Part shown: in pieces, positions 3,372 through 17,775 of the stretch
Layout: every line of letters starts with the position of its first letter
Numbering within the stretch: position 1 is the first letter of the stretch
Origin: an uncultured Arenicella sp.
GTDB taxonomy: Bacteria > Pseudomonadota > Gammaproteobacteria > Arenicellales > Arenicellaceae
Assembly: GCA_937973905.1 (NCBI GenBank)
Contig: CALJJR010000050.1
Span: 1-35,983 of the forward strand
DNA: 35,983 nt
Direction: 5' to 3'
The notes under the pieces: generated by a model
What the model saw: only the letters and a program-made list of their open reading frames with translations
Told to the model about the DNA's origin: nothing
Database searches by the model: none
Program-made: the position numbers and the translations under genes

Positions 3372-4202
3372 ATGCAAACAACGATGACCGAACGCAGACC
3401 ACCCTCGCTGCTGTCATTTCTTTTTGAGTCCCGAGCTCTCCTTGATGTTGCAAGCGTGCCGCTTACGCTCGCTGGTAGCAAGCTGGTCAGAAACCAAGCA
3501 AACCATGCTCTGCCAATTATTCTGTTCCCTGGCTTTGGCTCCGACGAGGTCTACCTAAAGGCTCTTGAACATTACTTAAGCAACCTAGGCTATCAAGCTG
3601 AAGGATGGGGGCTTGGCACAAATTTGGCCGGCGCCGATATAGACCATACTTTAGAAGACCTGCACCCGCGCTGGGAATTCGAAAGTCCTGACGGCTACAC
3701 GCCAGAGACCTACCGCGGTGAAGGCGGTGTTCCCATGTTGTGTGATAAGGCCATTGATCGAGTGATCAAACGTTCAGAGGAACTAGATTCGCCCGTCGTG
3801 CTTATAGGCTGGAGCCTTGGTGGTTACCTCGCCCGCGAATGCGCGCGCGAGCTGCCTGACCAAGTAGCTCAGGTGATTACATTTGGAGCGCCCGTTTATG
3901 GTGGCCCCAAGTACAGCCGTGTTGCAAGCGTGTTCAAAGCCAGAAACTTTGATCTTGATTGGATAGAAGAGTCCATCGAAAGACGCACCAGCAAACCCAT
4001 CATGCAGCCGATTACTTCGATCTACAGCAAATCAGATGGCATTGTTTCTTGGACGGCAGCGATCGACCAAGATAGCCCCAATGTCGAAAATATCGAAGTC
4101 AACGCCTCGCATCTCGGCATGGGGTTCAACCGAAAGGTGTGGAAGATAATCGCAGATGCGCTGCAAGCCAAGGCACTGCAGCAGGCGGAACTAACTTCTT
4201 AG
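3372..4202 (+). CDS. Alpha/beta hydrolase (esterase/lipase-like)
   Basis: A 276-residue alpha/beta-fold hydrolase. The nucleophile elbow is G-W-S-L-G with S148. LPIILFPGFGSDE (about residues 46-58) forms the oxyanion strand region, and the NASHLGMG segment near the C-terminus supplies the likely catalytic histidine. No signal peptide is evident, so it is probably cytoplasmic. An ATG 12 bases further on (3384) is an alternative start. It is divergent from marR and probably its target. It ends 12 bases inside the convergent FAD/GcvT gene. The substrate cannot be told from the sequence. Confidence 0.8.
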   Translation: MQTTMTERRPPSLLSFLFESRALLDVASVPLTLAGSKLVRNQANHALPIILFPGFGSDEVYLKALEHYLSNLGYQAEGWGLGTNLAGADIDHTLEDLHPRWEFESPDGYTPETYRGEGGVPMLCDKAIDRVIKRSEELDSPVVLIGWSLGGYLARECARELPDQVAQVITFGAPVYGGPKYSRVASVFKARNFDLDWIEESIERRTSKPIMQPITSIYSKSDGIVSWTAAIDQDSPNVENIEVNASHLGMGFNRKVWKIIADALQAKALQQAELTS

Positions 4203-6614
4203 CAACTGATTGGACGGATCGTAAACCGCGTCTATTTCAATGTGTGCCTTACGCATGCCTAGGCTGGTAAACACCTCTAATTCAGTGCCCTGCTCGACTA
4301 ACTCAGGTTTGATATAAGCGAACGCCAGGCTGTATCCAACCCGGTGCCCATAGGCGCCACTGGTGGTTATGCCTATAAGCTCGCCCTGATGGTAAACCGC
4401 TTCATTGCCAAAACATTCGCAAGCCACGTCGTCATCAAAGGCCAAATAGGCGAGCTTTATTTCGCCGCCTTCTTGCTCACGTTTTCGTACCGTCTCAACC
4501 CCAATAAAGTCTCGGCTGGTGTCGATAAACCTATCCATGCCAGCTTCCACACCGGTCATCTCTTCAGTGAATTCATGGCCCCATGCGCGATACATTTTTT
4601 CCATCCGCATTGAGTTGAAGGCAAGACCGCCAAAATCCCGCAAGCCCTTTTCTGCGCCAACGCGGAATAATGATTCGTAAATGCTCGGCAGTTGATAAAC
4701 AGGCATATGCAGCTCGTAACCAAGCTCACCCGCATAGCTGACTCGAATCGCTCGCACCATGGCGGCGTCCACTTGAATCATCTGCGTGGTCAACCAAGGA
4801 AAAGCCTTGTGCGACAAATCCGATGCACTCAGTTCTTGTAAAATTTCTCTGGATTTGGGGCCAGTTAACAGCACGCCTCCCCAAGCATCGGTACGATTGA
4901 TAATTTCGACATCAAAGCCATCGGCATGTTGCTCCATCCATTGATAGTCACGCACTTCACCACCCATCGGGCCCACTAAAAAGAAGTGTTCTTCATTGAT
5001 ACGCGTAATCGATTGCTCGGTCATGATGCCGCCGTTAGGCCCATGAAAAAGAGTCAATCCAAGCCGGCCATCTTGGCCAGGCAATTTGTTACAACTTAAG
5101 CGGTCGAGAAAAGCGTAGGCATCTTTGCCAATAATTTCATACTTGGCCGCACCCGAGATATCTGTAACTCCAGCCGCGTGTTGCACAGCCGCGCACTCAG
5201 CAGCGACTACCTCGTGTGTTTCATTTCTGCTCCAAGTGGGTGTTTCGTGCGGCACCTCTTTGGTGGCGAACCATTGCGGCTTTTCATAACCATGCACGAC
5301 ACCATGCACAGCGCCCTTCTCTTGCAATATTGCGTACAGCGGCCCGTTGCGTTGTGCACGCCCAATCGGCCGGTGTTCAGTGGCACCCATGGCGGTAAAC
5401 ATGGTTTCATAACTTTCTATCGCCTTGGTCACAAGAAAGTTTTTATCCTCATACGCCCATGCACCAAAGCGTCGGCTATCGAGCGGTGCCATATTGATTT
5501 CTGTTTCACCGTAGACCATCCATTGCGCCATGAATTTGCCCAGCGAACCCTGTGCAATGCCAATACTTGATCCACACAGATTCCAAAAATTGCGCAACCC
5601 TTCTTGCGGGCCGGCTAACACATTGTCGTCTGGCGTATGGGTAATGGGGCCGTTTACAACCGTAGATACGCCGACTTCACCAAACGCAGGAGTCAACTCC
5701 ATGCAGCGATCTAAAAATGGCATCAGGCGGTCTAAATCTCCCGGGAATAACTCACGATCAAAGCCCCAGTCCATACCGTCGAGTGCCCAAGGTTTAGAAC
5801 CCCAGGTTTCGTAAGGACCAACTAAGAACCCGTCGCCCTCTTGGCGAATGTAAGAGTTTGAATAAGAGTCACGGCAAACCGGCATCTCCTTCGTTAAGGC
5901 TTTTACATCCGGGTGCGCATCAGTGACCAAATACTGGTGCTCTAAATTAATGATCGGAACTTTAACCCCGACCATAGCGCCAACCTCAGGAGCAAAGCAC
6001 CCTGCGGCATTCACCACATGCTCGGCTCTGACCGTGCCCTTTTCGGTGATTACTTCCCACTCTCCGTTGGCGAGTTGATTGATATCAAGCACTCGGTTGT
6101 AGCGGCTTATGGTGGCCCCGTTTTTGCGTGCCGCTTGCGAGATCGGCATGACCACTGAAGTAGGGTCAACGTGACCATCATTCGGTGTGCTGACGATAAC
6201 TCTCGCCTTATCGAAATTCATCAGAGGGTTGAGCTCTTGTGCCTCGCGCTTGCTAATAATATTGAACTCGCAAGGGATGTTTTTTGAGCGGCTTTCCATA
6301 TTTCGAAACCACTCTTCTTCGAGCTGGGTATAGCCGATGCGTAAGCTGCCGGGCTGTTTAAATGGGGAAGGTTCACCCGTCAGTTCAGGGAGCTCTTTGG
6401 TGTAGAGATCAATCGATGCCTGATGCACCTGTGACACGGTCATACTGCCATTGAGGTTACACAGCAAACCCGCGGCATGCCAAGTAGAGCCGCTAGTGAG
6501 TTCGCCTTTGTCAATCAACAGCGTGTCGGTCCAGCCTTCTTTACTCAAGTGATACAGCAAGCTAACACCTAAGGAACCACCACCAACAATTACCACGCGT
6601 GCGTAATCAAGCAT
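4191..6614 (-). CDS. FAD-dependent dehydrogenase fused to GcvT (dimethylglycine/sarcosine dehydrogenase type)
   Basis: An 807-residue two-part enzyme. The N-terminal half is a DAO-type FAD oxidoreductase with the dinucleotide motif G11-x-G13-x-x-G16 and the GSTWHAAG segment. In dimethylglycine dehydrogenases the histidine of this segment (here H46) carries covalent FAD. The C-terminal half is a GcvT/aminomethyltransferase domain, which in this family passes the oxidised methyl group to tetrahydrofolate. Such enzymes demethylate N-methylated amines such as dimethylglycine or sarcosine. Here the gene lies between tpa and xsc and is divergent from xsc, so an N-methylated taurine is a plausible substrate (inference). 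GAGGAG lies just before the ATG. The length is normal for the family. Confidence 0.85.
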   Translation of the reverse strand: MLDYARVVIVGGGSLGVSLLYHLSKEGWTDTLLIDKGELTSGSTWHAAGLLCNLNGSMTVSQVHQASIDLYTKELPELTGEPSPFKQPGSLRIGYTQLEEEWFRNMESRSKNIPCEFNIISKREAQELNPLMNFDKARVIVSTPNDGHVDPTSVVMPISQAARKNGATISRYNRVLDINQLANGEWEVITEKGTVRAEHVVNAAGCFAPEVGAMVGVKVPIINLEHQYLVTDAHPDVKALTKEMPVCRDSYSNSYIRQEGDGFLVGPYETWGSKPWALDGMDWGFDRELFPGDLDRLMPFLDRCMELTPAFGEVGVSTVVNGPITHTPDDNVLAGPQEGLRNFWNLCGSSIGIAQGSLGKFMAQWMVYGETEINMAPLDSRRFGAWAYEDKNFLVTKAIESYETMFTAMGATEHRPIGRAQRNGPLYAILQEKGAVHGVVHGYEKPQWFATKEVPHETPTWSRNETHEVVAAECAAVQHAAGVTDISGAAKYEIIGKDAYAFLDRLSCNKLPGQDGRLGLTLFHGPNGGIMTEQSITRINEEHFFLVGPMGGEVRDYQWMEQHADGFDVEIINRTDAWGGVLLTGPKSREILQELSASDLSHKAFPWLTTQMIQVDAAMVRAIRVSYAGELGYELHMPVYQLPSIYESLFRVGAEKGLRDFGGLAFNSMRMEKMYRAWGHEFTEEMTGVEAGMDRFIDTSRDFIGVETVRKREQEGGEIKLAYLAFDDDVACECFGNEAVYHQGELIGITTSGAYGHRVGYSLAFAYIKPELVEQGTELEVFTSLGMRKAHIEIDAVYDPSNQLLRS

Positions 6615-7015
6615 TTACTTCTCCTCTCGCGCTGGAACTTTAGCGCTACAACCTTGGGATATATTTTATTTTTATCGGTGCCGAACACTTGGCTCAGCAA
6701 CACTTAACCGTGAGATATTGGCACCCATTAATCGGGCGCACAACAACCAGATTAAGCAACTTAATGGAACCAGCTTTTGATTGCTATCATGCAATCGACA
6801 TTGAGTGATTTAAAGCACCCTTAAGGATTTTAAAAAATAGAAATTTTAGCTGTTTTCATGCCTATTATTTTGATTATTGAGACTATTAGAGTCATTAAAT
6901 CTCAAATATGGTTGCTGCGCCAAATTCTCGTTGCTAATCTTACACGGCTAATTTGTACTCACAAACTAGCTCACAAAAAACTTATTCATCGACACTGAAA
7001 TTTGGAGGAAGGACC
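6615..7015. promoter_or_regulatory. Divergent control region of xsc and the FAD/GcvT gene
   Basis: This 401-base gap has no credible gene. It holds three dyads: ATTAAG-CAA-CTTAAT (6751-6765), GATTGC-TATCAT-GCAATC (6779-6796) and TTGAGA...TCTCAA (6877-6905), the last enclosing GACT-ATTAG-AGTC. The first two are perfect inverted repeats about 30 bases apart. They are candidate binding sites for a sulfonate-responsive regulator encoded outside the window. No promoter is clear enough to call. Confidence 0.45.
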
Positions 7016-8779
7016 ATGGCACGCATGACTCCTAGCGAAGCATTTGTAGAAACTCTGGTTGCCAATGGCGTAACTGATATTTTTGGCATTATGGGGTCAG
7101 CCTTTATGGATGCCATGGATATTTTCGCCCCCGCTGGAATCCGTTTGATTCCAGTTGTGCACGAACAAGGAGCGGCGCATATGGCAGATGGCTATGCGCG
7201 CGCCACGGGCAAGCATGGCGTGGTGATTGGTCAAAACGGACCGGGCATCAGCAACTGCGTAACGGCCATTGCGGCAGCTTATTGGGCGCACAGCCCGGTG
7301 GTTATGATTACGCCTGAAACGGGCACGCTGGGCCAAGGCTTAGGTGGCTTTCAAGAAGCCGATCAGCTGCCCATGTTCCGCGAATTCGTTAAGTATCAAG
7401 GCCATGTAAACAACCCCGCCAGAATGGCTGAATACACCGGCCGCTGCTTTGATCGTGCCTTATCCGAAATTGGCCCAACTCAGCTGAATATCCCGCGGGA
7501 TTATTTCTACGGCGATATCGATGTCGACATTCCCCAACCGGCGCGCTTGGACCGAGGCCCAGGCGGGGAACGTACGCTGCAAGAAGCCGCCGATCTGCTA
7601 GCGGAAGCTAAATTCCCAGTTATTGTTGCAGGGGGCGGTGTGGTTATGGCCGACGGTGTTGAAGAGTGTAAGGCGCTCGCAGAGCGGCTCGGTGCGCCGG
7701 TAGTCAACAGTTACCAACACAATGACTCGTTTCCTGCCAGCCATCCACTTTGGTGTGGGCCGCTAGGCTATCAAGGTTCTAAAGCCGGCATGAAATTAAT
7801 CTCCAAAGCCGATGTGGTGATTGCTCTGGGTTCACGCCTTGGGCCGTTTGGAACCTTGCCGCAACACGGCATGGACTATTGGCCAACCGATGCCAAGATC
7901 ATTCAGATTGATGCAGACCACAAAATGCTCGGCTTGGTGAAAAAGATTTCAGTCGGCATTTGCGGCGATGCCAAAGCCGCGGCCATTGCTCTAACCAATT
8001 TACTTACTGATAAAGCGCTGGCCTGCGATGCAAGTAAAGAAGCACGGGCAGCTGAAATTGCCGACGAGAAAAAAGCTTGGGAAGCAGAACTAGACGAGTG
8101 GATCCACGAGAAAGACGACTTCAGTCTGGACATGATCGAAGAAGCTAAGAACGAGCCGGGTAATTGGCTGCATCCGCGGCAAGTACTGCGTGAACTCGAA
8201 AAAGCCATGCCAGAAGACGTAATGGTCTCAACCGACATCGGTAATATCAATTCTGTTGCGCACAGTTATCTACGTTTTGAGCGACCCCGCTCGTTTTTCG
8301 CACCGATGAGTTTTGGTAACTGTGGATACGCACTGCCAACCATGATCGGCGCCAAAACAGCAGCGCCGGAACGTCCGGCGATTGCCTATGCAGGCGACGG
8401 CGCTTGGGCCATGAGCATGACCGAAATCATGACCAGCGTGCGCCACGACATTCCGGTTACCGGCGTGGTCTTTCATAATCGTCAATGGGGCGCAGAGAAA
8501 AAGAACCAGGTTGACTTCTATAACCGTCGCTTTGTTGCAGGCGAACTTGAAAGCGAGAGCTTTGCGGGTATCGCGCAAGCCATGGGCGCTGAAGGGATCG
8601 TCGTCGATAAGCTAGAAGATGTTGGCCCTGCCCTGAAGAAGGCCATCGATATGCAGATGAATGAGCGTAAAACCTGCGTGATCGAAATCATGTGCACCCG
8701 TGAGCTGGGCGATCCGTTCCGTCGCGATGCTTTGTCAAAACCGGTTCGCTACCTCGAGAAGTACAAAGACTACGTTTAG
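7016..8779 (+). CDS. xsc: Sulfoacetaldehyde acetyltransferase
   Basis: A thiamine-diphosphate enzyme that, with phosphate, cleaves sulfoacetaldehyde to acetyl phosphate and sulfite in the cytoplasm. The protein is 587 residues, normal for Xsc. The catalytic ThDP-activating glutamate is E50 (VHEQGAAHMADGYARATG), and the ThDP/Mg motif runs from G460-D461-G462 to N488. The opening RMTPSEAFVETLVANGVTDI and the RQWGAEKKNQ segment are typical of Xsc rather than acetolactate synthase. I chose the ATG at 7016 because GGAGGAAGG lies immediately before it. The open frame continues 63 bases upstream without such a signal. It is followed by a hairpin and then pta. Confidence 0.95.
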   Translation: MARMTPSEAFVETLVANGVTDIFGIMGSAFMDAMDIFAPAGIRLIPVVHEQGAAHMADGYARATGKHGVVIGQNGPGISNCVTAIAAAYWAHSPVVMITPETGTLGQGLGGFQEADQLPMFREFVKYQGHVNNPARMAEYTGRCFDRALSEIGPTQLNIPRDYFYGDIDVDIPQPARLDRGPGGERTLQEAADLLAEAKFPVIVAGGGVVMADGVEECKALAERLGAPVVNSYQHNDSFPASHPLWCGPLGYQGSKAGMKLISKADVVIALGSRLGPFGTLPQHGMDYWPTDAKIIQIDADHKMLGLVKKISVGICGDAKAAAIALTNLLTDKALACDASKEARAAEIADEKKAWEAELDEWIHEKDDFSLDMIEEAKNEPGNWLHPRQVLRELEKAMPEDVMVSTDIGNINSVAHSYLRFERPRSFFAPMSFGNCGYALPTMIGAKTAAPERPAIAYAGDGAWAMSMTEIMTSVRHDIPVTGVVFHNRQWGAEKKNQVDFYNRRFVAGELESESFAGIAQAMGAEGIVVDKLEDVGPALKKAIDMQMNERKTCVIEIMCTRELGDPFRRDALSKPVRYLEKYKDYV

Positions 8780-8795
8780 AACCCAAAATCGGCTT

Positions 8796-8828
8796 AGGCT
8801 CGCCCTTAATTAAGTCGGCGAGCCTTTT
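8796..8828 (+). terminator. Hairpin terminator or attenuator between xsc and pta
   Basis: AGGCTCGCC (8796-8804) pairs perfectly with GGCGAGCCT (8817-8825), followed by a short T run. The loop contains the palindrome CTTAATTAAG, which can extend the structure. The T tract is short, so partial read-through into pta is likely. Confidence 0.65.
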
Positions 8829-8964
8829 GCTCGACTCGTCGACTCTTTGAGGTACCCTTAGCGTGAGCGGGCACTATTGTCTGCTTGCGTTAGCGCCGAA
8901 CTCACCGACACTAGACCTGCCTCGATATCACTTTGAACACGCACCGATAACAAGCCGTAAAGCC

Positions 8965-9900
8965 ATGCTCAGTAAAACTCCGGTTGAATGCCCGCAAACG
9001 CTGCTTGATAAAGCGTCTGGTTCCGCTCCTGTTGCAACGGCAGTTGTGAACGCTGGATCGAAACTGGTGCTTCAGAGCGCCCAGATGGCTCACCAAGAAG
9101 GACTCATCGAGCCAGTATTCGTTGGTAACAGAGCCGAGATTCAGACGCTTGCCGGACAACTCGATTGGGACATTTCCACACTGCGCATTGTCGATGCCGA
9201 CAATGAATTAGAAGCCGCCAACACAGCTGTCTCGTTAGCGCGAGGCAACGAAGTCGCCTCTTTAATGAAGGGTGATGTGCATACCGATAATTTGCTCAAA
9301 GCGGTGTTAAACAAAGACCGCGGCTTGAGAACAGGCAGCCGATTAAGCCATGTGTTTCATATGTCGGTTCCCACTTCCACGCAAACGATTTGCATTACCG
9401 ACGCTGTTGTAAATGTTCAACCCGATGTCACCACCAAATTGCACATCGCTCGCAATGCTACTTTGCTCATGCATGCTCTGGGATTTGAGCAACCAAAAAT
9501 TGCCGTGCTGTCTGCCACCGAGGTGGCAACGCCATCGATGCCCTCGAGTATTGATGCCGCCGCAGTAGTAAAAGCCGCCGCCGAAGGGGAAGTAGAGGGC
9601 GCTCTTGTGGGCGGACCCTTTGCCTTTGATAACGCGATGTCACTTGAGGCTGCTAAGTTAAAAGGAATCAGCGATCCGGTCGCTGGCCAGGCTGACGTTC
9701 TGTTGGTACCCAACATAGAGACCGGCAATGCGCTGTTTAAGCAAATGGTGTATTTCATGAGCGCCGCGGCCGCCGGCGTTGTTTTGGGCGCCAAGGTGCC
9801 AATTGTACTTACCTCGCGCGCTGATCCAGCTGCAGCGCGTCTCGCCGCCGCGGCGTTGGCGTCAATTTACGCTAGCCACTCACCTAACCACGGACAATAG
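8965..9900 (+). CDS. pta: Phosphate acetyltransferase (short Pta form)
   Basis: A protein of the phosphate acetyl/butyryl-transferase family that converts the acetyl phosphate made by Xsc to acetyl-CoA. The PTA_PTB fold covers essentially the whole chain. Typical segments are SRLSHVFHMSVP and ITDAVVNVQPD in the middle and ADVLLVPNIETGNALFKQMVYF near the C-terminus. I favour the ATG at 8965 (311 residues), where family-like sequence begins. A GTG at 8863 would add 34 residues that look non-coding, though TTGAGG lies before it. Neither start has a strong ribosome-binding site. It is followed after two bases by the CobS-like gene, so they are co-transcribed. Confidence 0.85.
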   Translation: MLSKTPVECPQTLLDKASGSAPVATAVVNAGSKLVLQSAQMAHQEGLIEPVFVGNRAEIQTLAGQLDWDISTLRIVDADNELEAANTAVSLARGNEVASLMKGDVHTDNLLKAVLNKDRGLRTGSRLSHVFHMSVPTSTQTICITDAVVNVQPDVTTKLHIARNATLLMHALGFEQPKIAVLSATEVATPSMPSSIDAAAVVKAAAEGEVEGALVGGPFAFDNAMSLEAAKLKGISDPVAGQADVLLVPNIETGNALFKQMVYFMSAAAAGVVLGAKVPIVLTSRADPAAARLAAAALASIYASHSPNHGQ

Positions 9901-9902
9901 AC

Positions 9903-10883
9903 GTGACTGAAATCAGCCAACTGCAACCCGACCAAATGCTGGCCGTTAAAGACCTGTTTGGTATCGACAGCACATTAAAAGTACCTGCCTTCAGTGAGCG
10001 CGATGAACATGTGCCTGAGATAGACCCGGCCTATCAGTTCAATGCAGACGTGACCTTAGCGATCTTATCGGGCTTCGTACAAAACCGCCGGGTAATGGTG
10101 CAAGGCATGCATGGAACCGGCAAGTCTACCCACATCGAGCAAATTGCCGCGCGTTTAAATTGGCCCTGTGTGCGGATTAATTTAGACGGCCACATCAGTC
10201 GTTTAGACCTGATTGGTCGCGATGCAGTAGTGCTAAAAAACAACAAACAAATCACCGAATTTCAAGAAGGTATTTTGCCGTGGGCAATACAACGACCCGT
10301 GGCACTAATCTTTGACGAACTTGATGCCGCCCGACCAGAGGTCATGTTCGTGATTCAACGCATCTTGGAACGCGAAGGCAAATTCACCTTGCTCGATCAA
10401 AATAAAGTGCTTGCCCCACACTCACATTTTCGTTTGTTCGCCACCGCCAACACCGTTGGCTTGGGTAACCTAAATGGCCTTTACCATGGCACCACGATGA
10501 TGAATCAAGCGCAAATTGATCGCTGGAATATTGTCGCCAAACTCAATTATTTGTCGGCTGAGGACGAGGCCAATATCGTGATTAGTCGGGTACCGAGTTT
10601 TGATAGCGAAGAAGGGCGAAAAACGGTTCGCTCAATGGTGGCGCTTGCTGATCTAACTCGAAAGGGATTTGCAGCCGGCGACATATCGACTCTGATGTCG
10701 CCAAGAACGGTTATTTTTTGGGCTGAAAACCAAGAGATCTTCCGCGATGTGGCAGCTGCTTTTCGTCTTTCATTTTTGAATAAATGTGACGAGGCCGAGT
10801 ATTCGATCATTGCCGAGTACTATCAACGTTGCTTCGACACCGAACTTTCTGAAAGCGAAACCATCAGTGAGTGGTTTGACTAA
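9903..10883 (+). CDS. CobS-like AAA+ ATPase (MoxR class)
   Basis: A 326-residue AAA+ ATPase closely resembling CobS, the ATPase subunit of aerobic cobaltochelatase. Walker A is GMHGTGKST (residues 68-76, K74) and Walker B is LIFDELD (D138, E139). The FRLFATANTVGLGNLNGLYHGT stretch carries sensor 1 and the characteristic CobS loop. The SPRTVIFWAEN and RLSFLNKCDE segments are also CobS-like. The GTG start lies two bases after the pta stop. CobS normally works with CobT and CobN to insert cobalt into hydrogenobyrinate diamide. No CobN is in view, and the position behind xsc-pta suggests a paralogue remodelling another client. That role is inference. Confidence 0.85.
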   Translation: MTEISQLQPDQMLAVKDLFGIDSTLKVPAFSERDEHVPEIDPAYQFNADVTLAILSGFVQNRRVMVQGMHGTGKSTHIEQIAARLNWPCVRINLDGHISRLDLIGRDAVVLKNNKQITEFQEGILPWAIQRPVALIFDELDAARPEVMFVIQRILEREGKFTLLDQNKVLAPHSHFRLFATANTVGLGNLNGLYHGTTMMNQAQIDRWNIVAKLNYLSAEDEANIVISRVPSFDSEEGRKTVRSMVALADLTRKGFAAGDISTLMSPRTVIFWAENQEIFRDVAAAFRLSFLNKCDEAEYSIIAEYYQRCFDTELSESETISEWFD

Positions 10884-10889
10884 GCAAAC

Positions 10890-12608
10890 ATGCAACGGCT
10901 CGAAGTTCTCCAGCAAAAGCTCGAACACTGGTGCGCTGCGTCGGTTAGAGCACTGTCTGGTAAACCCACTGTTCATTACCGCGGGCATAACCTTTACCTT
11001 GGCGAGCAACATCTAGCGCTGCGCGCGCCCTATCTGCATTTAGACTTCTCCACCCACAACGCACATCAGTTGCGCGGAGTTGCCGACGCCATCGCGCTGC
11101 GGTTACGCAATAGCGATAACCAACTGCATGTCTGCAATAGCCCAGAGAGCCCACTACAGCAATTAGTTTTCGAGTTACTTGAGCAACTCAGAACCGAAGC
11201 GTTGGTGCCCGACAAGTTTGTTGGCATGCGCAAAAACCTACGCAATCGCTTCCTATTTTGGGCGACTCAAGCATCCACATCTAAATTGGTTGAAAATGAT
11301 ATCGGCTTGCTGATCTTCACATTAACGGTGATGGCATGGTCACGTTTATTAAGTGAGTCGATCCCCGAACATATCGAGGACGTTATCGAATCCACCCGCT
11401 GGGGTTTGGCCGAAAGTATCGGTTCTCAACTTAGAGAACTAAAACGCTTCAAACACGAGCAGCAAGCTTTTGCCGACACGGCGCTATTGATCGCCAAAAC
11501 AATTAGCGACATGGCTAACGAGCAAAGCTCTAATGGCGAAGACCAAGAGGATGCAGCAGCACAATTGCAAAAACTTGCTGAGAGCAAACAGCTCAATTTG
11601 AAGTGGTTGGAAAACGACAGCGAGCAAGTGCAAAACCAGTTTGGCATCACGGCGCCTAATGCGCTGGAATCGATACCAGACGGTTTCGTCTATCAAGTTT
11701 TCACCAACGAGCATGATCGAGAACTCGCGGTCACACAGCTAATTCGCACCGCGCAGTTGCGTAAGTTCCGCATACAGTTAGACAAACGCATCCGGCAACA
11801 ATCGCTCAATACTCACCGAGTCGCCCGTTACATCAAGCAACTCGTTGCCAGCCCTACATTATCGGGCTGGTCGTTCGGACAGGAGCAAGGCTACTTAGAT
11901 GCCGCACGATTAACTCGCCTGGTAACCTCGCCAGAAGAACGTCGCTTGTTTCGGCGAGAAGATCTGCGTTCTCAGAGCGATTGCGCAATCAGCATTTTGA
12001 TCGATAACTCGGGGTCAATGAATCACCACAACGAGACCGTTGCCGCGCTCGTGGATAATCTTGCCAAAGCCTTGGAACTTGCGAGCGTACGCTGCGAAGT
12101 GCTTGGATTCACTACCCGGGAATGGAACGGTGGTCAGGTTATGAAAGATTGGCTTGCTGCTGGCAGCCCAGATAATCCAGGACGCTTGAATGCAATACAA
12201 CACACCGTTTACAAGGAGTTTGAAACGCCGTGGCGCCGATCTAGACCTGCAATTGCAGGCTTGCTCAGAACGGATTTATTTCGTGAAAGCGTTGATGGCG
12301 AAGCCTTGGAGTGGGCATCTCAAAGACTGTCACTACGATCTGAAAGCAAGAAGATACTCATTGTAATCTCGGATGGATCACCGATGGACACGGCGACGGT
12401 AAGCACCAATCATGAGCGCTATCTTGATCACCACCTAGCGCAGGTTTGCCGAAATATTGAGCGGCGCCCAGACCTTAAACTGTGTGCCATTGGCGTGGGC
12501 TTAGATCTCAGTGCCTACTATCAACACAGCATATCGATTACGCTCGATAACGAGCTAACAACCAACGACTATCTCGCGATGGCGGAATTACTGCACCGCG
12601 CGACCTAG
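10890..12608 (+). CDS. CobT-like VWA-domain protein
   Basis: A 572-residue partner of the preceding AAA+ protein, resembling cobaltochelatase subunit CobT. The N-terminal two thirds are helical, with a short acidic stretch (NGEDQEDAAAQ) where CobT has a longer one. The C-terminal von Willebrand A domain shows the metal-ion-dependent adhesion site D372-x-S374-x-S376 in LIDNSGSM and the later LIVISDGSPMD strand. It starts six bases after the CobS-like stop, so the two are translated together. In MoxR/VWA pairs the VWA protein links the ATPase ring to the client. The short acidic linker and lack of a nearby cobN leave open whether this is a true chelatase subunit. Confidence 0.82.
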   Translation: MQRLEVLQQKLEHWCAASVRALSGKPTVHYRGHNLYLGEQHLALRAPYLHLDFSTHNAHQLRGVADAIALRLRNSDNQLHVCNSPESPLQQLVFELLEQLRTEALVPDKFVGMRKNLRNRFLFWATQASTSKLVENDIGLLIFTLTVMAWSRLLSESIPEHIEDVIESTRWGLAESIGSQLRELKRFKHEQQAFADTALLIAKTISDMANEQSSNGEDQEDAAAQLQKLAESKQLNLKWLENDSEQVQNQFGITAPNALESIPDGFVYQVFTNEHDRELAVTQLIRTAQLRKFRIQLDKRIRQQSLNTHRVARYIKQLVASPTLSGWSFGQEQGYLDAARLTRLVTSPEERRLFRREDLRSQSDCAISILIDNSGSMNHHNETVAALVDNLAKALELASVRCEVLGFTTREWNGGQVMKDWLAAGSPDNPGRLNAIQHTVYKEFETPWRRSRPAIAGLLRTDLFRESVDGEALEWASQRLSLRSESKKILIVISDGSPMDTATVSTNHERYLDHHLAQVCRNIERRPDLKLCAIGVGLDLSAYYQHSISITLDNELTTNDYLAMAELLHRAT

Positions 12609-12632
12609 CAGGAACAATCAGAGGAATTCAAA

Positions 12633-12974
12633 ATGCCATTAAAACGATATGTAACAGAAATGGGTATGGGCGTTGATGTGCACGGCGGCGACTATACCAA
12701 GGCCGCATGCCGCGCCGTGTCCGACGCAATCCGCCATAGCAGTCTGAATTTCTTTCCTCACATAGACTACACGCGCGACGATATGCGCATCATCGTGAAA
12801 ATTGGCGCCAAGCATCCCGAGCAAGTAGACCGACAAAAGGTGGCGGATGAACTGCCGTATGGCCAGGTAACAGTAGAACCCGAAACCGGTGGTCTAGATG
12901 TACTGGCCGAGAACGGCGAAGACCTGATGGTGGTCGTCAATGCAGTACTGTTGGTTTGCTTTGAGGATAAATAG
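12633..12974 (+). CDS. Lin0512-family protein of unknown function
   Basis: A 113-residue protein of the Lin0512 family (TIGR02058), identified by the invariant GxGxDxHG motif, here GMGVDVHG at residues 11-18. It is followed by the expected helix (YTKAACRAVSDAI) and alternating strands. The family has no established function. A good GAGG ribosome-binding site precedes the ATG. The gene follows the CobT-like gene by 24 bases and is the last of the xsc-pta-cobS-cobT run. The conserved Asp and His could bind a metal, which would fit chelatase-like neighbours, but this is speculation. Confidence 0.88.
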   Translation: MPLKRYVTEMGMGVDVHGGDYTKAACRAVSDAIRHSSLNFFPHIDYTRDDMRIIVKIGAKHPEQVDRQKVADELPYGQVTVEPETGGLDVLAENGEDLMVVVNAVLLVCFEDK

Positions 12975-13072: not shown

Positions 13073-15070
13073 TTATTCCGATTGACCGCGATACCAAATC
13101 GGAGATGACCAAGCCATTTCTCGTATCATCTGCGGATACGAATCATCACTACAAACAGCCGGGCGTTGATCTTCGCCGAGTCGATCGCAGTCATAGTTGT
13201 GCCAACGTTTGACTGGCGGTTCAACCGCACGCAAATAGTAGTATGCAGATTGTTTTGCATCGAATTTTTCATCGGTGAAAACAGTACACAAACGGCTTGC
13301 GCCATTCTCAGACTTAGCGACAGGTAAAACTTCGTTGTGCATTTTGCCATCGGCGTCTACCCAGCCTTTGATGAGGTGCAGTTCGGCAAGGTTTTGACCT
13401 TCAGGGTCTTTGTTGGCTGCGGCCAAGAAATGAGGCTTGCCGCTGGCATTGACACTAAGGTCGCCACCCATTGGCACACCGCCCGCGTAAGCTTTTTTAA
13501 TCATGTCTGGATCATCACACAAGTTTTCCGCGTAGCTCCAGCCGCCGAACAAGCGCACTGTCATGCGCGGGCCGGATGTGCCGAAAACTTCTCGATTAAG
13601 CATCGCGTCGAAGATTGCATCGCGCGTATTTTCCTTGGCCCATACACCGGCTAAACCACCTGGGTTGCCATCAATACCACTGGTGAGCAAACCGGGTTGC
13701 AGACGTTCTGCGGGGGTAGATTCCAAAGTGACCGCCCCCGTCCAGTCTGATTCCAACACCGCACCTGGTGTTGAAGAATGTGTGTCAGTCGCGGCGATGG
13801 TGCCCAGCTTAATAGGGTTGAAACCAATCTCTTGCTCTTCCTTCAGTCCAACAATAAGGCCAGAACGCTGAAAATCTGTCGGGTCCACACAACCGGCACC
13901 CAGCATGCCATTGGCACCAATTTCACCGTCGGCACATTCCTTAGTCACTTCAGTAGCTTGAGAAGTCGCTAAGCTGCCGCCTGTGAGATCGCGAGTAACA
14001 TAGGTTTTCTCTTCACCCATTCTGCGCACTTCTTCAACCGAACATAGTTCGTCAGGCGCTCCAAACACGGTGCTCAACCCATTAATACACTCGGAACTGC
14101 CTTTGTGTTGGAAGATTTCCATAATCGGTTCACGCTGCAGCCGCTTTTGCGCGTAGGCGCGCTTCGCTTCTGAGGTGTCTTCAAGTTGCATATACGGCGC
14201 CATGCGGCCATTCGCAAGATTCGAGTTATGAGGAATGGTTAAGTAGTCACAACCGCTTGCCGCGTCGCATACTTGATCCAAGTTCGCCCACAACTTGCTG
14301 TCAATCGGCGCGTCGATATAACTGACCGGCGCCGCAGGCACGACATCATTGCGAAAAATCACGTTTCGATGATAGTTCGACGTGCCAGGTGTGCCGGTGT
14401 ACTCATAACCAACAAAGCTCGTGAATTCACAAGGCGTGTTGACCTCATTAGCGGCCCGTTGCACCTCTTGCCATGGAGATACGGCGTATTCTCGACACAG
14501 CGAACCATCTTCACCACAAATTTCAGCAATCCGCGCGGGCGTTTCGGTCGTGATTACCGTCCCCAACATCATCATGCCTTGGCGTTGGTTGGCGCGATAG
14601 TTTTGACAAAACTCAGTGTCATAACTTGGCGAGCCCTCAGCGCGACAGATAGCACTTTCGCCCAAGAATTCACCATGATCGGTCACCGCCAGAAAGTCGA
14701 GTGGGCGGTCGATTTGCGCGGTGCCGGTGGCTTCGCCTTGTTCGTTTACGGGGAAGAACGGAATACTCTCGCCGCGCGCGTAACGTTGCGCGTCGAATGG
14801 CGTAGTGCCGGTGCTATTCGCAGCTGCGTCAAAGGAGTAACTGGTGTGCACGTGCAAATCCCCAAACAAGGCCATGCCATCTTCGTTGCGATTACCACAA
14901 CTTGTTTCAGGAGTATCGCTCGATTCAGCTTTTGCAACGAATTCCGTCTCAGCGACAGGATCAACTGCACTCGCCTTATCGTTGGCCTGCTCTGCGGGGT
15001 TGCATGCAACCAGCATGATCGTCATTAGACAAGCAACGACGACACGACCAAAATTTATTATTCCTCGCAT
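13073..15070 (-). CDS. DUF3604 lipoprotein (PHP-like predicted metallohydrolase)
   Basis: A 665-residue DUF3604 protein. The N-terminus is a lipoprotein signal with the lipidated cysteine at position 23 (MLVAC). The mature part opens with GDLHVHTSYSFDA, whose H73-x-H75 matches the metal-binding start of PHP-type phosphoesterases. AVTDHGEF and LTIPHNSN further on supply more putative metal ligands. DUF3604 proteins are abundant in marine bacteria, but I know of no firmly established activity. I chose the ATG at 15070 because GGAG precedes it and the lipoprotein signal begins there. A start 105 bases upstream would bury the signal. Confidence 0.85.
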   Translation of the reverse strand: MRGIINFGRVVVACLMTIMLVACNPAEQANDKASAVDPVAETEFVAKAESSDTPETSCGNRNEDGMALFGDLHVHTSYSFDAAANSTGTTPFDAQRYARGESIPFFPVNEQGEATGTAQIDRPLDFLAVTDHGEFLGESAICRAEGSPSYDTEFCQNYRANQRQGMMMLGTVITTETPARIAEICGEDGSLCREYAVSPWQEVQRAANEVNTPCEFTSFVGYEYTGTPGTSNYHRNVIFRNDVVPAAPVSYIDAPIDSKLWANLDQVCDAASGCDYLTIPHNSNLANGRMAPYMQLEDTSEAKRAYAQKRLQREPIMEIFQHKGSSECINGLSTVFGAPDELCSVEEVRRMGEEKTYVTRDLTGGSLATSQATEVTKECADGEIGANGMLGAGCVDPTDFQRSGLIVGLKEEQEIGFNPIKLGTIAATDTHSSTPGAVLESDWTGAVTLESTPAERLQPGLLTSGIDGNPGGLAGVWAKENTRDAIFDAMLNREVFGTSGPRMTVRLFGGWSYAENLCDDPDMIKKAYAGGVPMGGDLSVNASGKPHFLAAANKDPEGQNLAELHLIKGWVDADGKMHNEVLPVAKSENGASRLCTVFTDEKFDAKQSAYYYLRAVEPPVKRWHNYDCDRLGEDQRPAVCSDDSYPQMIREMAWSSPIWYRGQSE

Positions 15071-15259
15071 TGGGAGACTCCGATTTTTATAGTTGTTATG
15101 AGTATGGAGAGAGCGATCTGATGTTGAATTCTCTCGATTAGGTTCATTATTGAATACCAACCGTCGCCAAGGCAACCTAATGAAGGCAATCCGAGCACTA
15201 TGGTGAGTGTTACACGGTCTAGCTATACTTCCCGATTAAGCGCAAACACCCAGACGATC

Positions 15260-16106: not shown

Positions 16107-16173
16107 CCGCGCGCCGAGGCGTTCTGCCTGAAACCACTCACCCCATTCGGAGTCGTTGGACTCCCGAGTTCCC

Positions 16174-17775
16174 ATGTTTGAATTAGTAGCGGCACGTCGT
16201 GCCAGCTTGAAGAACGATATATTGTCGGGTCTGACCGTGGCCCTTGCCTTGGTTCCAGAAGCCGTAGCGTTTGCATTGATTGCGGGCGTCGAACCATTGG
16301 TTGGTCTCTATGCCGCAGCAATTGTGGGCTTTATTACCGCAGTTGCCGGCGGGCGGCCCGGTATGATCTCAGGCGCCACCGGCGCTCTCGCGGTGGTGAT
16401 GGTGTCCTTGGTCGCACAACATGGTGTTGAGTACCTATTTGCAACCGTGATTTTGATGGGCGCGATTCAGATGTTGGCATCGGTACTTCGCATTGCAAAG
16501 TTTATCCGTCTGGTTCCTCATCCCGTCATGCTTGGCTTTGTGAATGGCCTGGCAATCGTGATTTTCTTGGCCCAGCTGGGCCAGTTCGGCGTTGATACTG
16601 GCGTGGGTTGGGCAAAAGATACGTTTCTGGAAGGCAGCATTGTAGATGTGGCTTGGTTACCTGCCCCTGAACTCATGATGATGATTGGTTTGGTGGTGAT
16701 AACCATGGCGATTATTCGCTATCTGCCATTGCTGACTAAAGCAATACCATCCTCTTTAGCGGCCATTTTAGTGATCTCATTTGACGTCATCGGCTTCGAT
16801 ATTGATACTAGGCTGGTCGGGGACGTTGCATCGATTGCCGGTGGCCTACCCACTTTTAGCATTCCAACCGTACCGTTCAATGCCGAAACGCTAAGCATCA
16901 TTTTCCCCTACGCCTTTATTCTCGCGGCCATTGGGCTTATTGAGTCACTGCTGACGCTGCGCTTAATCGACGAGCTTACTGAGACTCGCGGTAATGGTAA
17001 CAAAGAGTGCTTTGGACAAGGCTTGGCGAACACAGTAACGGGATTGTTCGGCGGCATGGGTGGTTGCGCGATGATCGGTCAGAGCATGATTAACGTAAAC
17101 TCCGGCGGCCGCGGCCGACTATCTGGAATTGCCGCGGCGGTATTTTTAGGTATTTTCATTCTCGTCGCATCGTCTTTGATTGAACAAATACCGATCGCGG
17201 CATTGGTCGGCGTTATGTTCATCGTTGTGATTGGTACTTTCGAATGGTCAAGCTTTAGAATCATTCGACGAGTTCCCAAAGAAGACGCGTTTGTCTTAAT
17301 AACGGTCTCTGCTGTCACCGTGTTTACCGACTTGGCCATCGCGGTGGTCGTTGGTGTCATCATTTCTGCCTTGGTGTTTGCTTGGAACCACGCCAAGGAA
17401 GTCCGTGTTGAAAAACGCGAGAATCGCTACGGATCACACTACTACACAGTTCACGGACCACTTTTCTTTGGCTCTACTGCCTCCTTTTCAGAGCAGTTCA
17501 CACCCCGTGACGACAACAATGACGTGATCATTGATTTTGCCGATTCGCGGGTAGCCGACTATTCAGGCATCGAAGCGATTGATGCCCTCGCCGAACGATA
17601 TCGTAAGAACAATCGCACTCTGCACCTCTTGCACCTGAGCCATGAGTGTAAAAAGCTACTCAAAAAAGCCGGTAGCCTAGTAGAAGTAAACGTCGTTGAA
17701 GACCCCAAGTATTTTGTTGCTATTGAGCGCGCGTGGAATGAAGAAGATGCCCTGCCCTCGCAGGAATCTAGTTAA
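16174..17775 (+). CDS. SulP-family anion transporter with STAS domain
   Basis: A 533-residue inner-membrane transporter of the SulP (SLC26-like) family. The N-terminal signature runs through GLTVALALVPEAVAFALIAG and is followed by many hydrophobic helices. The C-terminal cytoplasmic STAS domain carries D462-Y463-S464-G465, the site that resembles the anti-sigma-antagonist phosphorylation motif. Family members carry sulfate, bicarbonate, dicarboxylates or other anions. The substrate cannot be read here, although sulfate is tempting given the sulfite made by Xsc nearby. I prefer the ATG at 16174. A TTG at 16156 is possible but too close to its GGAG. Confidence 0.88.
   Translation: MFELVAARRASLKNDILSGLTVALALVPEAVAFALIAGVEPLVGLYAAAIVGFITAVAGGRPGMISGATGALAVVMVSLVAQHGVEYLFATVILMGAIQMLASVLRIAKFIRLVPHPVMLGFVNGLAIVIFLAQLGQFGVDTGVGWAKDTFLEGSIVDVAWLPAPELMMMIGLVVITMAIIRYLPLLTKAIPSSLAAILVISFDVIGFDIDTRLVGDVASIAGGLPTFSIPTVPFNAETLSIIFPYAFILAAIGLIESLLTLRLIDELTETRGNGNKECFGQGLANTVTGLFGGMGGCAMIGQSMINVNSGGRGRLSGIAAAVFLGIFILVASSLIEQIPIAALVGVMFIVVIGTFEWSSFRIIRRVPKEDAFVLITVSAVTVFTDLAIAVVVGVIISALVFAWNHAKEVRVEKRENRYGSHYYTVHGPLFFGSTASFSEQFTPRDDNNDVIIDFADSRVADYSGIEAIDALAERYRKNNRTLHLLHLSHECKKLLKKAGSLVEVNVVEDPKYFVAIERAWNEEDALPSQESS

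Follow-up and report, generated by a model that had tools for sequence, protein, structure and literature searches.

The locus described here raises the question of why genes resembling those for the cobaltochelatase subunits CobS and CobT stand beside xsc, the gene for sulfoacetaldehyde acetyltransferase. It lies on a 35,983-nt contig stretch (CALJJR010000050.1, hereafter the window) of an Arenicella-like gammaproteobacterium, whose own genome (G000; G and L numbers are our handles for genomes and loci) is 88.75% complete. Among organic sulfur compounds taurine is abundant; the desulfonation step of its breakdown is catalyzed by Xsc, while the cobaltochelatase CobNST inserts cobalt into hydrogenobyrinate diamide. 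The answer that we consider probable is that the CobS/CobT pair (CobST) encoded next to xsc acts as a dedicated MoxR AAA+/VWA remodeling machine, whose client would be one type of Xsc (type A), a thiamine diphosphate (ThDP) enzyme of taurine breakdown.

Organization of the Locus

The genes in question and the intergenic element between the first two of them are as follows:

6953–8779, plus strand: xsc, sulfoacetaldehyde acetyltransferase of type A, the proposed client (TIGR03457, 1066.8 bits; clade A of the Xsc tree)
8797–8828, plus strand: terminator-like hairpin in the xsc/pta gap (GGCTCGCC...GGCGAGCC followed by TTTT)
8863–9900, plus strand: pta, phosphate acetyl/butyryltransferase-family protein (PTA_PTB, E 8e-38; PRK08190 match from residue 44)
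9903–10883, plus strand: cobS-like gene, X-type, AAA+ (MoxR-type) ATPase of 326 aa (CobS_N, AAA_5; TIGR01650; tree)
10890–12608, plus strand: cobT-like gene, X-type, VWA protein of 572 aa (PF06213, 98.8 bits; PF11775, 182.6 bits; TIGR01651; AlphaFold2 model)
12633–12974, plus strand: Lin0512-family protein of 113 aa with an FtsZ-like fold (PF09585, 113.5 bits against a gathering score of 23.4; PDB 3c8l)

The window Xsc passes the TIGR03457 equivalog cut-off (1066.8 vs. 676.4 bits). Its match to this family starts at residue 24, and the true start of the gene is probably near 7022; likewise, the family match of Pta begins at about residue 44 and its true start may lie further in than 8863. A preliminary description of this DNA had placed the last three genes behind xsc and pta, with gaps of 2 (pta/cobS), 6 (cobS/cobT), and 24 (cobT/lin0512) bases, in one transcription unit. 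The coordinates and gaps were confirmed, and pta-cobS-cobT-lin0512 is indeed a tight unit, to which xsc could not be added with the same confidence, because the 83-base gap separating it from pta holds the terminator-like hairpin. The stem of the latter, read from the sequence, spans 8797–8804/8817–8824 and is followed by TTTT; its predicted fold reaches −21 kcal/mol (z −3.9), and none of 200 shuffled sequences was equally stable. It was not listed by the hairpin pattern scan, whose loop limit was 8. Thus, xsc may be transcribed mostly alone, apart from the pta-cobS-cobT-lin0512 unit.

CobS and CobT Linked to xsc Form Separate Groups

Neither protein of the window reaches the equivalog cut-off of the cobaltochelatase family concerned. 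The CobS-like protein scores 515.3 bits against the 558.55 bits of TIGR01650, for which the CobS encoded on a Pandoraea oxalativorans plasmid (L261) reaches 584.8 bits, and the CobT-like protein scores 322.1 bits against the 759.05 bits of TIGR01651, a cut-off that the L261 CobT also misses (716.5 bits). The labels X-type and chelatase-type were preset from scores and linkage, and trees then tested them. In the CobT tree, built by a quick method from 55 hand-picked rows of 98 and with long branches flagged by the program, a single branch (SH-aLRT, the Shimodaira–Hasegawa-like approximate likelihood ratio test, 100) splits 33 X-type from 22 chelatase-type sequences. The CobS tree (59 of 75 rows, 16 having been dropped, mostly Pandoraea; bootstrap not fully settled) places all 34 X-type rows on one side of a branch supported at 88/89. 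For both proteins, the xsc-linked copies fall into a group of their own, as the preliminary description had proposed to examine.

The groups also differ in the CobT linker, which comprises 48–64 aa with 10–32% D/E in X-type and 76–99 aa with 17–50% D/E in chelatase-type proteins. The window protein was previously said to have only a short acidic linker; it is short (59 aa), and its acidity is weak (19% D/E).

Co-Occurrence of X-Type cobST with One Type of Xsc

By identity to the window protein, Xsc sequences were divided into types A (at least 77%), B (65–72%), and C (44–49%); partial matches below the cut-off in three genomes (G026, G029, and G120) were left untyped. Typing by bit score alone had been considered and dropped, as the G474 protein scored 1016 bits, yet is only 46% identical and thus of type C. 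In the Xsc tree, for which the 76 distinct rows were reduced to 62 by dropping 14 near copies that came from named loci, type A is a clade of 33 rows with support of 100/96, of which 27 come with an X-type CobT, one with a chelatase-type CobT (G033), and five with none.

Three samples were searched, i.e., 61 relatives, a class sample of 229 genomes, and a phylum sample of 398 genomes. Among the relatives, type-A Xsc and CobT were found together in 19 genomes, type-A Xsc only in three, CobT only in two, and neither in 37 (Fisher p 9e-11, a statistic that ignores relatedness). In one of the two "CobT only" genomes (G008) the contig stops just upstream of pta; the other (G026) has a weak partial CobT match (36 bits) at a contig end and was scored as CobT-positive in this table without being counted as X-type. 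No CobT was found in the 21 relatives whose Xsc is of type B or C only. In the class sample, type A was present in 4/4 X-type genomes, two of which are already among the 61 relatives, and X-type CobT in 4/6 type-A genomes. In the phylum sample, all seven type-A genomes have X-type CobT, and the other 20 Xsc genomes, all of type C, have none, the only CobT seen there being higher-scoring and chelatase-type. Two genomes with weak CobT hits and without Xsc (G525 and G597) were excluded from the X-type, their AAA+ partner being 36% identical and matching only part of CobS.

When the samples were pooled without repeats, 25 of 31 type-A genomes proved to be X-type, one chelatase-type, and five devoid of the pair. 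Reciprocally, type-A Xsc was found in 25 of 26 X-type genomes, the remaining one breaking at a contig end, and X-type CobT in none of the 48 genomes typed B or C only (21 relatives, 7 of the class, and 20 of the phylum sample). Three families (f2, f5, and f9) and one genus (g225) each hold both genomes with type-A Xsc and X-type cobST and genomes with neither. Type-A Xsc is set apart from the other two types at M47, C102, and N433, among other positions, and these three residues we take to be near the active site. The position of E144 is occupied by E in 47/47 type-A and 0/15 type-B proteins.

Recurrent Linkage of cobST to xsc

The distance between xsc and cobS does not exceed 6 kb in 12 of the 21 relatives with CobT, and the linkage was also found in Pandoraea, Paraburkholderia, Burkholderia, Rhodoferax, an Alcaligenaceae bacterium, Thiotrichaceae, Photobacterium, Cupriavidus, and Caballeronia. 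The linkage, whose recurrence elsewhere had been proposed as a check, thus recurs across Gamma- and Betaproteobacteria. Its layouts vary: the genes are co-directional at 30–303 bp, are co-directional and have pta between them, stand head-to-head at 0.3–1.2 kb, or lie on opposite strands at 2.2–5.7 kb (distances taken from the ends of high-scoring segment pairs). In two loci (L023 and L027) xsc-cobS-cobT is contiguous with no adjoining pta. An IclR-type regulator gene faces the three genes in L023, where the genes beyond cobT are on the opposite strand, and in L027 they are flanked by EamA and MFS transporter genes on either side.

Plasmids give a similar picture. Of 139 plasmid records with Xsc, 129 show less than 60% identity to the window protein and 10 show 80–90% (type A); the seven proteobacterial ones among these ten are exactly the seven records with a CobS of at least 69% identity. 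Paraburkholderia phymatum STM815 is among the carriers of X-type cobST together with type-A xsc. A Roseateles-labeled plasmid (marked unverified) with a type-C xsc is not among the CobS-carrying records.

Proposed Function of the X-Type Pair

The motifs of the two proteins and the CobT linker are located as follows:

10104–10127, plus strand: Walker A motif GMHGTGKS of the CobS-like protein, read from the translation
11538–11732, plus strand: linker of the CobT-like protein, residues 217–281 (predicted local distance difference test, pLDDT, below 50 at residues 217–219 and 237–281)
12003–12374, plus strand: ligands of the metal ion-dependent adhesion site (MIDAS) of the VWA domain, D372-x-S374-x-S376, T409, and D495, from first to last ligand, identified by alignment

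The Walker A pattern is present in 75/75 CobS rows and the Walker B pattern in 73/75, the two rows without it being alphaproteobacterial and chelatase-type. All five MIDAS ligands (DxSxS, T, and D) are conserved in 33/33 aligned X-type CobT proteins and invariant in 14/14 in a separate comparison. The AlphaFold2 model of CobT (mean pLDDT 76) comprises a helical N-domain, the low-confidence linker, and a C-terminal VWA domain. In a Foldseek search with this model, NorD VWA structures headed the list (E 5e-8), with the Rea1 MIDAS domain in sixth place; none of the 50 matches listed is a solved CobT chain, so NorD ranks above other folds and not above CobT. The locus therefore has what characterizes a MoxR AAA+/VWA pair serving an enzyme, i.e., an AAA+ protein with Walker motifs, an adjacent VWA protein with a full MIDAS, and recurrent linkage, here to xsc. 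What sequence comparison shows is the identity of the genes, the integrity of the Walker A and MIDAS motifs, the separate groups, the linkage, the co-occurrence with type A, and the independence from CobN (see below).

Three known systems are close to the one proposed. CobNST shares the domain order with the window pair, with CobS_N and AAA+ in CobS and an N-domain and a VWA domain with MIDAS in CobT, whereas the window pair falls into separate groups below the cut-offs, has a short and weakly acidic linker, is usually found without CobN, and is linked to xsc. NorQ/NorD likewise combines a MoxR AAA+ protein with a VWA partner, and among the Foldseek matches listed for the CobT model, the VWA domain of NorD ranks first; the client of NorQ/NorD, however, is nitric oxide reductase, and the window sequences are of the CobS/CobT kind, another MoxR/VWA branch. 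The MIDAS of NorQD is inferred to bind the client, with ATP-driven remodeling permitting iron insertion (PMC9976466, PMC13036017). CbbQ/CbbO is also a MoxR/VWA pair and serves a soluble metabolic enzyme; its VWA MIDAS docks on an acidic residue of Rubisco, from which inhibitors are freed (PMC4660213). The client there is Rubisco, whereas here it would be a ThDP enzyme whose inhibition is hypothetical.

By analogy with NorQD and CbbQO, we infer that Xsc is the client, that its activation is the effect, and that the pair forms a ring and docks on the enzyme. CobS would assemble an ATP-driven ring with the VWA domain of CobT seated on it, and the MIDAS metal would dock on an acidic residue of Xsc, for which E144 is a candidate. 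ATP hydrolysis might then distort type-A Xsc, so that a cofactor or metal enters or a dead-end adduct leaves, yielding active enzyme. This activase scheme, in which the X-type pair would be one case of CobN-less CobST acting as enzyme-specific remodelers (further ones adjoin AurF-like oxygenase and urease genes), is put forward tentatively, with less confidence than the assignment of the client.

Several findings weigh against this assignment. Five type-A genomes (G014, G016, G023, G102, and G242) gave no CobT and no CobS match, and no CobS is seen on the records of three Rhodococcus plasmids that encode type-A Xsc; hence, CobST is not universally needed. No Xsc residue is changed in all three type-A lineages without cobST, and since the five Xsc proteins lacking the pair keep nearly all type-A-marking residues, nothing points to a docking site having been lost. 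The position of E144 is also acidic (E or D) in 12/14 type-C proteins. The closest solved relatives by sequence are the chelatase CobS and CobT. In six X-type relatives, cobST is away from xsc, at 340 kb in G024 and on separate contigs in G037, G042, G047, G055, and G059; a CbiX-like gene lies in the neighborhood of four of these six unlinked pairs and a ferrochelatase-like gene in that of three (as judged from gene clusters, one member of each having been checked with Pfam), neighbors that could be used for a tetrapyrrole reading. Finally, in G107 the pair adjoins pta and transporter genes and not xsc.

Alternative Explanations

The arrangement in G107 also favors the explanation that survives best beside the one we prefer, namely that CobST acts on another taurine or sulfonate protein (Pta, sulfite dehydrogenase, a transporter, or an unlinked metalloenzyme) and that type-A Xsc merely marks a version of the pathway. 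It agrees with the position of pta between xsc and cobS in the window and with the TauD-family dioxygenase gene that L023 has on the opposite strand, three genes beyond cobT. However, among the few X-type loci compared, it is xsc that stays constant while the other pathway genes vary: they include alanine dehydrogenase at xsc in G047, a flavin adenine dinucleotide (FAD) oxidoreductase with a TRAP transporter and TauE in G459, a molybdopterin oxidoreductase with a DmsC-like anchor at xsc in G107, and MFS transporters. Moreover, no pta adjoins xsc-cobS-cobT in L023 and L027. We regard such another client as rather unlikely, though worth keeping in mind.

A lower probability is given to a general chaperone-like CobST module with several clients including Xsc, the linkage to xsc reflecting shared regulation. 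Chelatase-type pairs do adjoin genes for AurF-like diiron oxygenases (L070, L234, and L270) and, in L021, for another ThDP enzyme, and one lies within a urease cluster (L261), but none of them is X-type, and the presence of the X-type closely tracks that of type-A Xsc. We consider this explanation improbable.

That CobS and CobT are ordinary cobaltochelatase subunits, whether they stand here by accident or work with a CobN encoded elsewhere, would account for their clear homology to this family. The absence of cobN from the window, pointed out earlier, extends to the G000 assembly, in which no CobN match was found at 88.75% completeness. In the 61 relatives, CobN and CobT were found together in six genomes, CobN only in eight, CobT only in 15, and neither in 32 (Fisher p 0.53), so 15 of the 21 CobT relatives gave no CobN match; of seven X-type genomes outside this set, two have CobN and five gave no match. 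In comparison, CobN is present in 12/14 alphaproteobacteria with chelatase-type CobT. The one genome checked that combines CobN with X-type cobST (G024) has its own ChlI-like AAA+ and VWA genes after cobN. The pair misses both NCBIfam cut-offs, forms its own CobS and CobT groups, recurs with xsc in Gamma- and Betaproteobacteria, and follows one Xsc type rather than CobN. These results tell against the chance placement raised earlier as an alternative, and neither of the two findings named in the preliminary description as refuting its own interpretation was obtained; we judge the cobaltochelatase explanation highly unlikely. Of the eight gammaproteobacteria in the class sample that carry chelatase-type CobT, one has CobN; as no match was found in the other seven (G077, G106, G153, G180, G235, G249, and G273), CobST without CobN may be common in this class.

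Hitch-hiking of cobST on a mobile taurine island, with no functional tie, would fit the wide spread of type-A Xsc, which reaches Rhodococcus plasmids at 85% identity, but it can be given very little credence, as the pair stays near xsc through several layouts, families in which the two are apart still retain both, and the MIDAS is intact across large divergence.

Novelty and Implications

MoxR/VWA pairs serving an enzyme are known; what would be new is a CobST pair in this role for Xsc. Chelatase-like pairs without a large subunit are not new as such, because ChlI/ChlD-like products in genomes devoid of it are described in PMC9227772. In the literature searched, CobST was connected with neither Xsc nor taurine; passages of PMC2864759 and PMC2265553 contain nothing of the kind, and "xsc" in PMC5997447 denotes the program Xscale. 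If type-A Xsc does need an ATP-driven helper, the label "cobaltochelatase" misleads vitamin B12 predictions for the Burkholderiales and marine gammaproteobacteria carrying the pair, type-A Xsc produced as a recombinant protein may fall short of full activity when CobST is missing, and the MoxR/VWA pairs would gain a ThDP client.

The Lin0512-Family Protein

The Lin0512 protein had been suggested as an adaptor or metal carrier of the module; its role as a core adaptor is not supported. Its gene is present in nine of the 61 relatives, seven of which have X-type cobST, and is close to cobST in five (G000, G006, G008, G010, and G012), all of the window's genus; in G010 one open reading frame separates them. 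In G018 and G036, including the sister genus case, it lies on another contig than X-type cobST, and in G031 and G050 it occurs without CobT. Away from the window's genus, the genes are single or in tandem pairs. We therefore rejected Lin0512 as a core part, and it is best seen as a lineage-specific passenger added locally to the unit. The model of the protein matches PDB 3c8l, which, like it, is a PF09585 member with the same FtsZ-like fold; that protein was deposited as being of unknown function, whereas the gene studied here is downstream of cobT.

Other CobST Pairs and Neighboring Genes

Several chelatase-type pairs adjoin enzyme genes. On the Pandoraea oxalativorans plasmid pPO70-1 (L261, 1377–8835), cobS and cobT are directly behind ureG in a urease cluster with the order ureC, ureB, ureA, ureD, a gene for a UreE_C protein, ureG, cobS, and cobT; the CobS is the one above the NCBIfam cut-off, and the arrangement suggests a role of the pair in urease metallation. 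Genes for AurF-like diiron oxygenases (assigned by Pfam in two loci and by 60% identity to one of these in the third) adjoin cobS-cobT in three gammaproteobacterial loci (L070, 10930–13809; L234, 5246–9629; L270, 7816–11764), and no CobN match was found in the two of these genomes that were searched (G106 and G235). In G033 (L021, 9147–15941), cobT overlaps the next gene, encoding a ThDP enzyme, and cobS follows genes for MttB and a B12-binding protein. We considered whether this locus proves a general role of CobST in the service of ThDP enzymes, a notion weakened by the finding that the enzyme is present in four of 109 genomes from the order and that, in the three besides G033, no CobT is encoded in the stretch fetched around it.

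A divergent CobN-family protein is encoded in six Arenicella relatives (G002, G004, G006, G007, G011, and G018; in G006 at L230, 6912–11276). The frames comprise 1450–1503 aa, being shorter in G002, and four of these six genomes are without CobT.

Plasmid pDK3 of Rhodococcus sp. DK17 (L262, 11950–14869) encodes a type-A Xsc of 85% identity and a phosphotransacetylase, with no CobS on the plasmid record; the presence of type A on this actinobacterial plasmid likely reflects a recent transfer.

In the window, the sulfonate genes are flanked by genes for an FAD oxidoreductase/GcvT-domain protein (4191–6614, minus strand) and a DUF3604 protein (13073–15175, minus strand), both recognized by Pfam. 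Further downstream, a sulfate-permease-family transporter with a STAS domain is encoded (16156–17775, plus strand), which might handle sulfur anions released by taurine breakdown.

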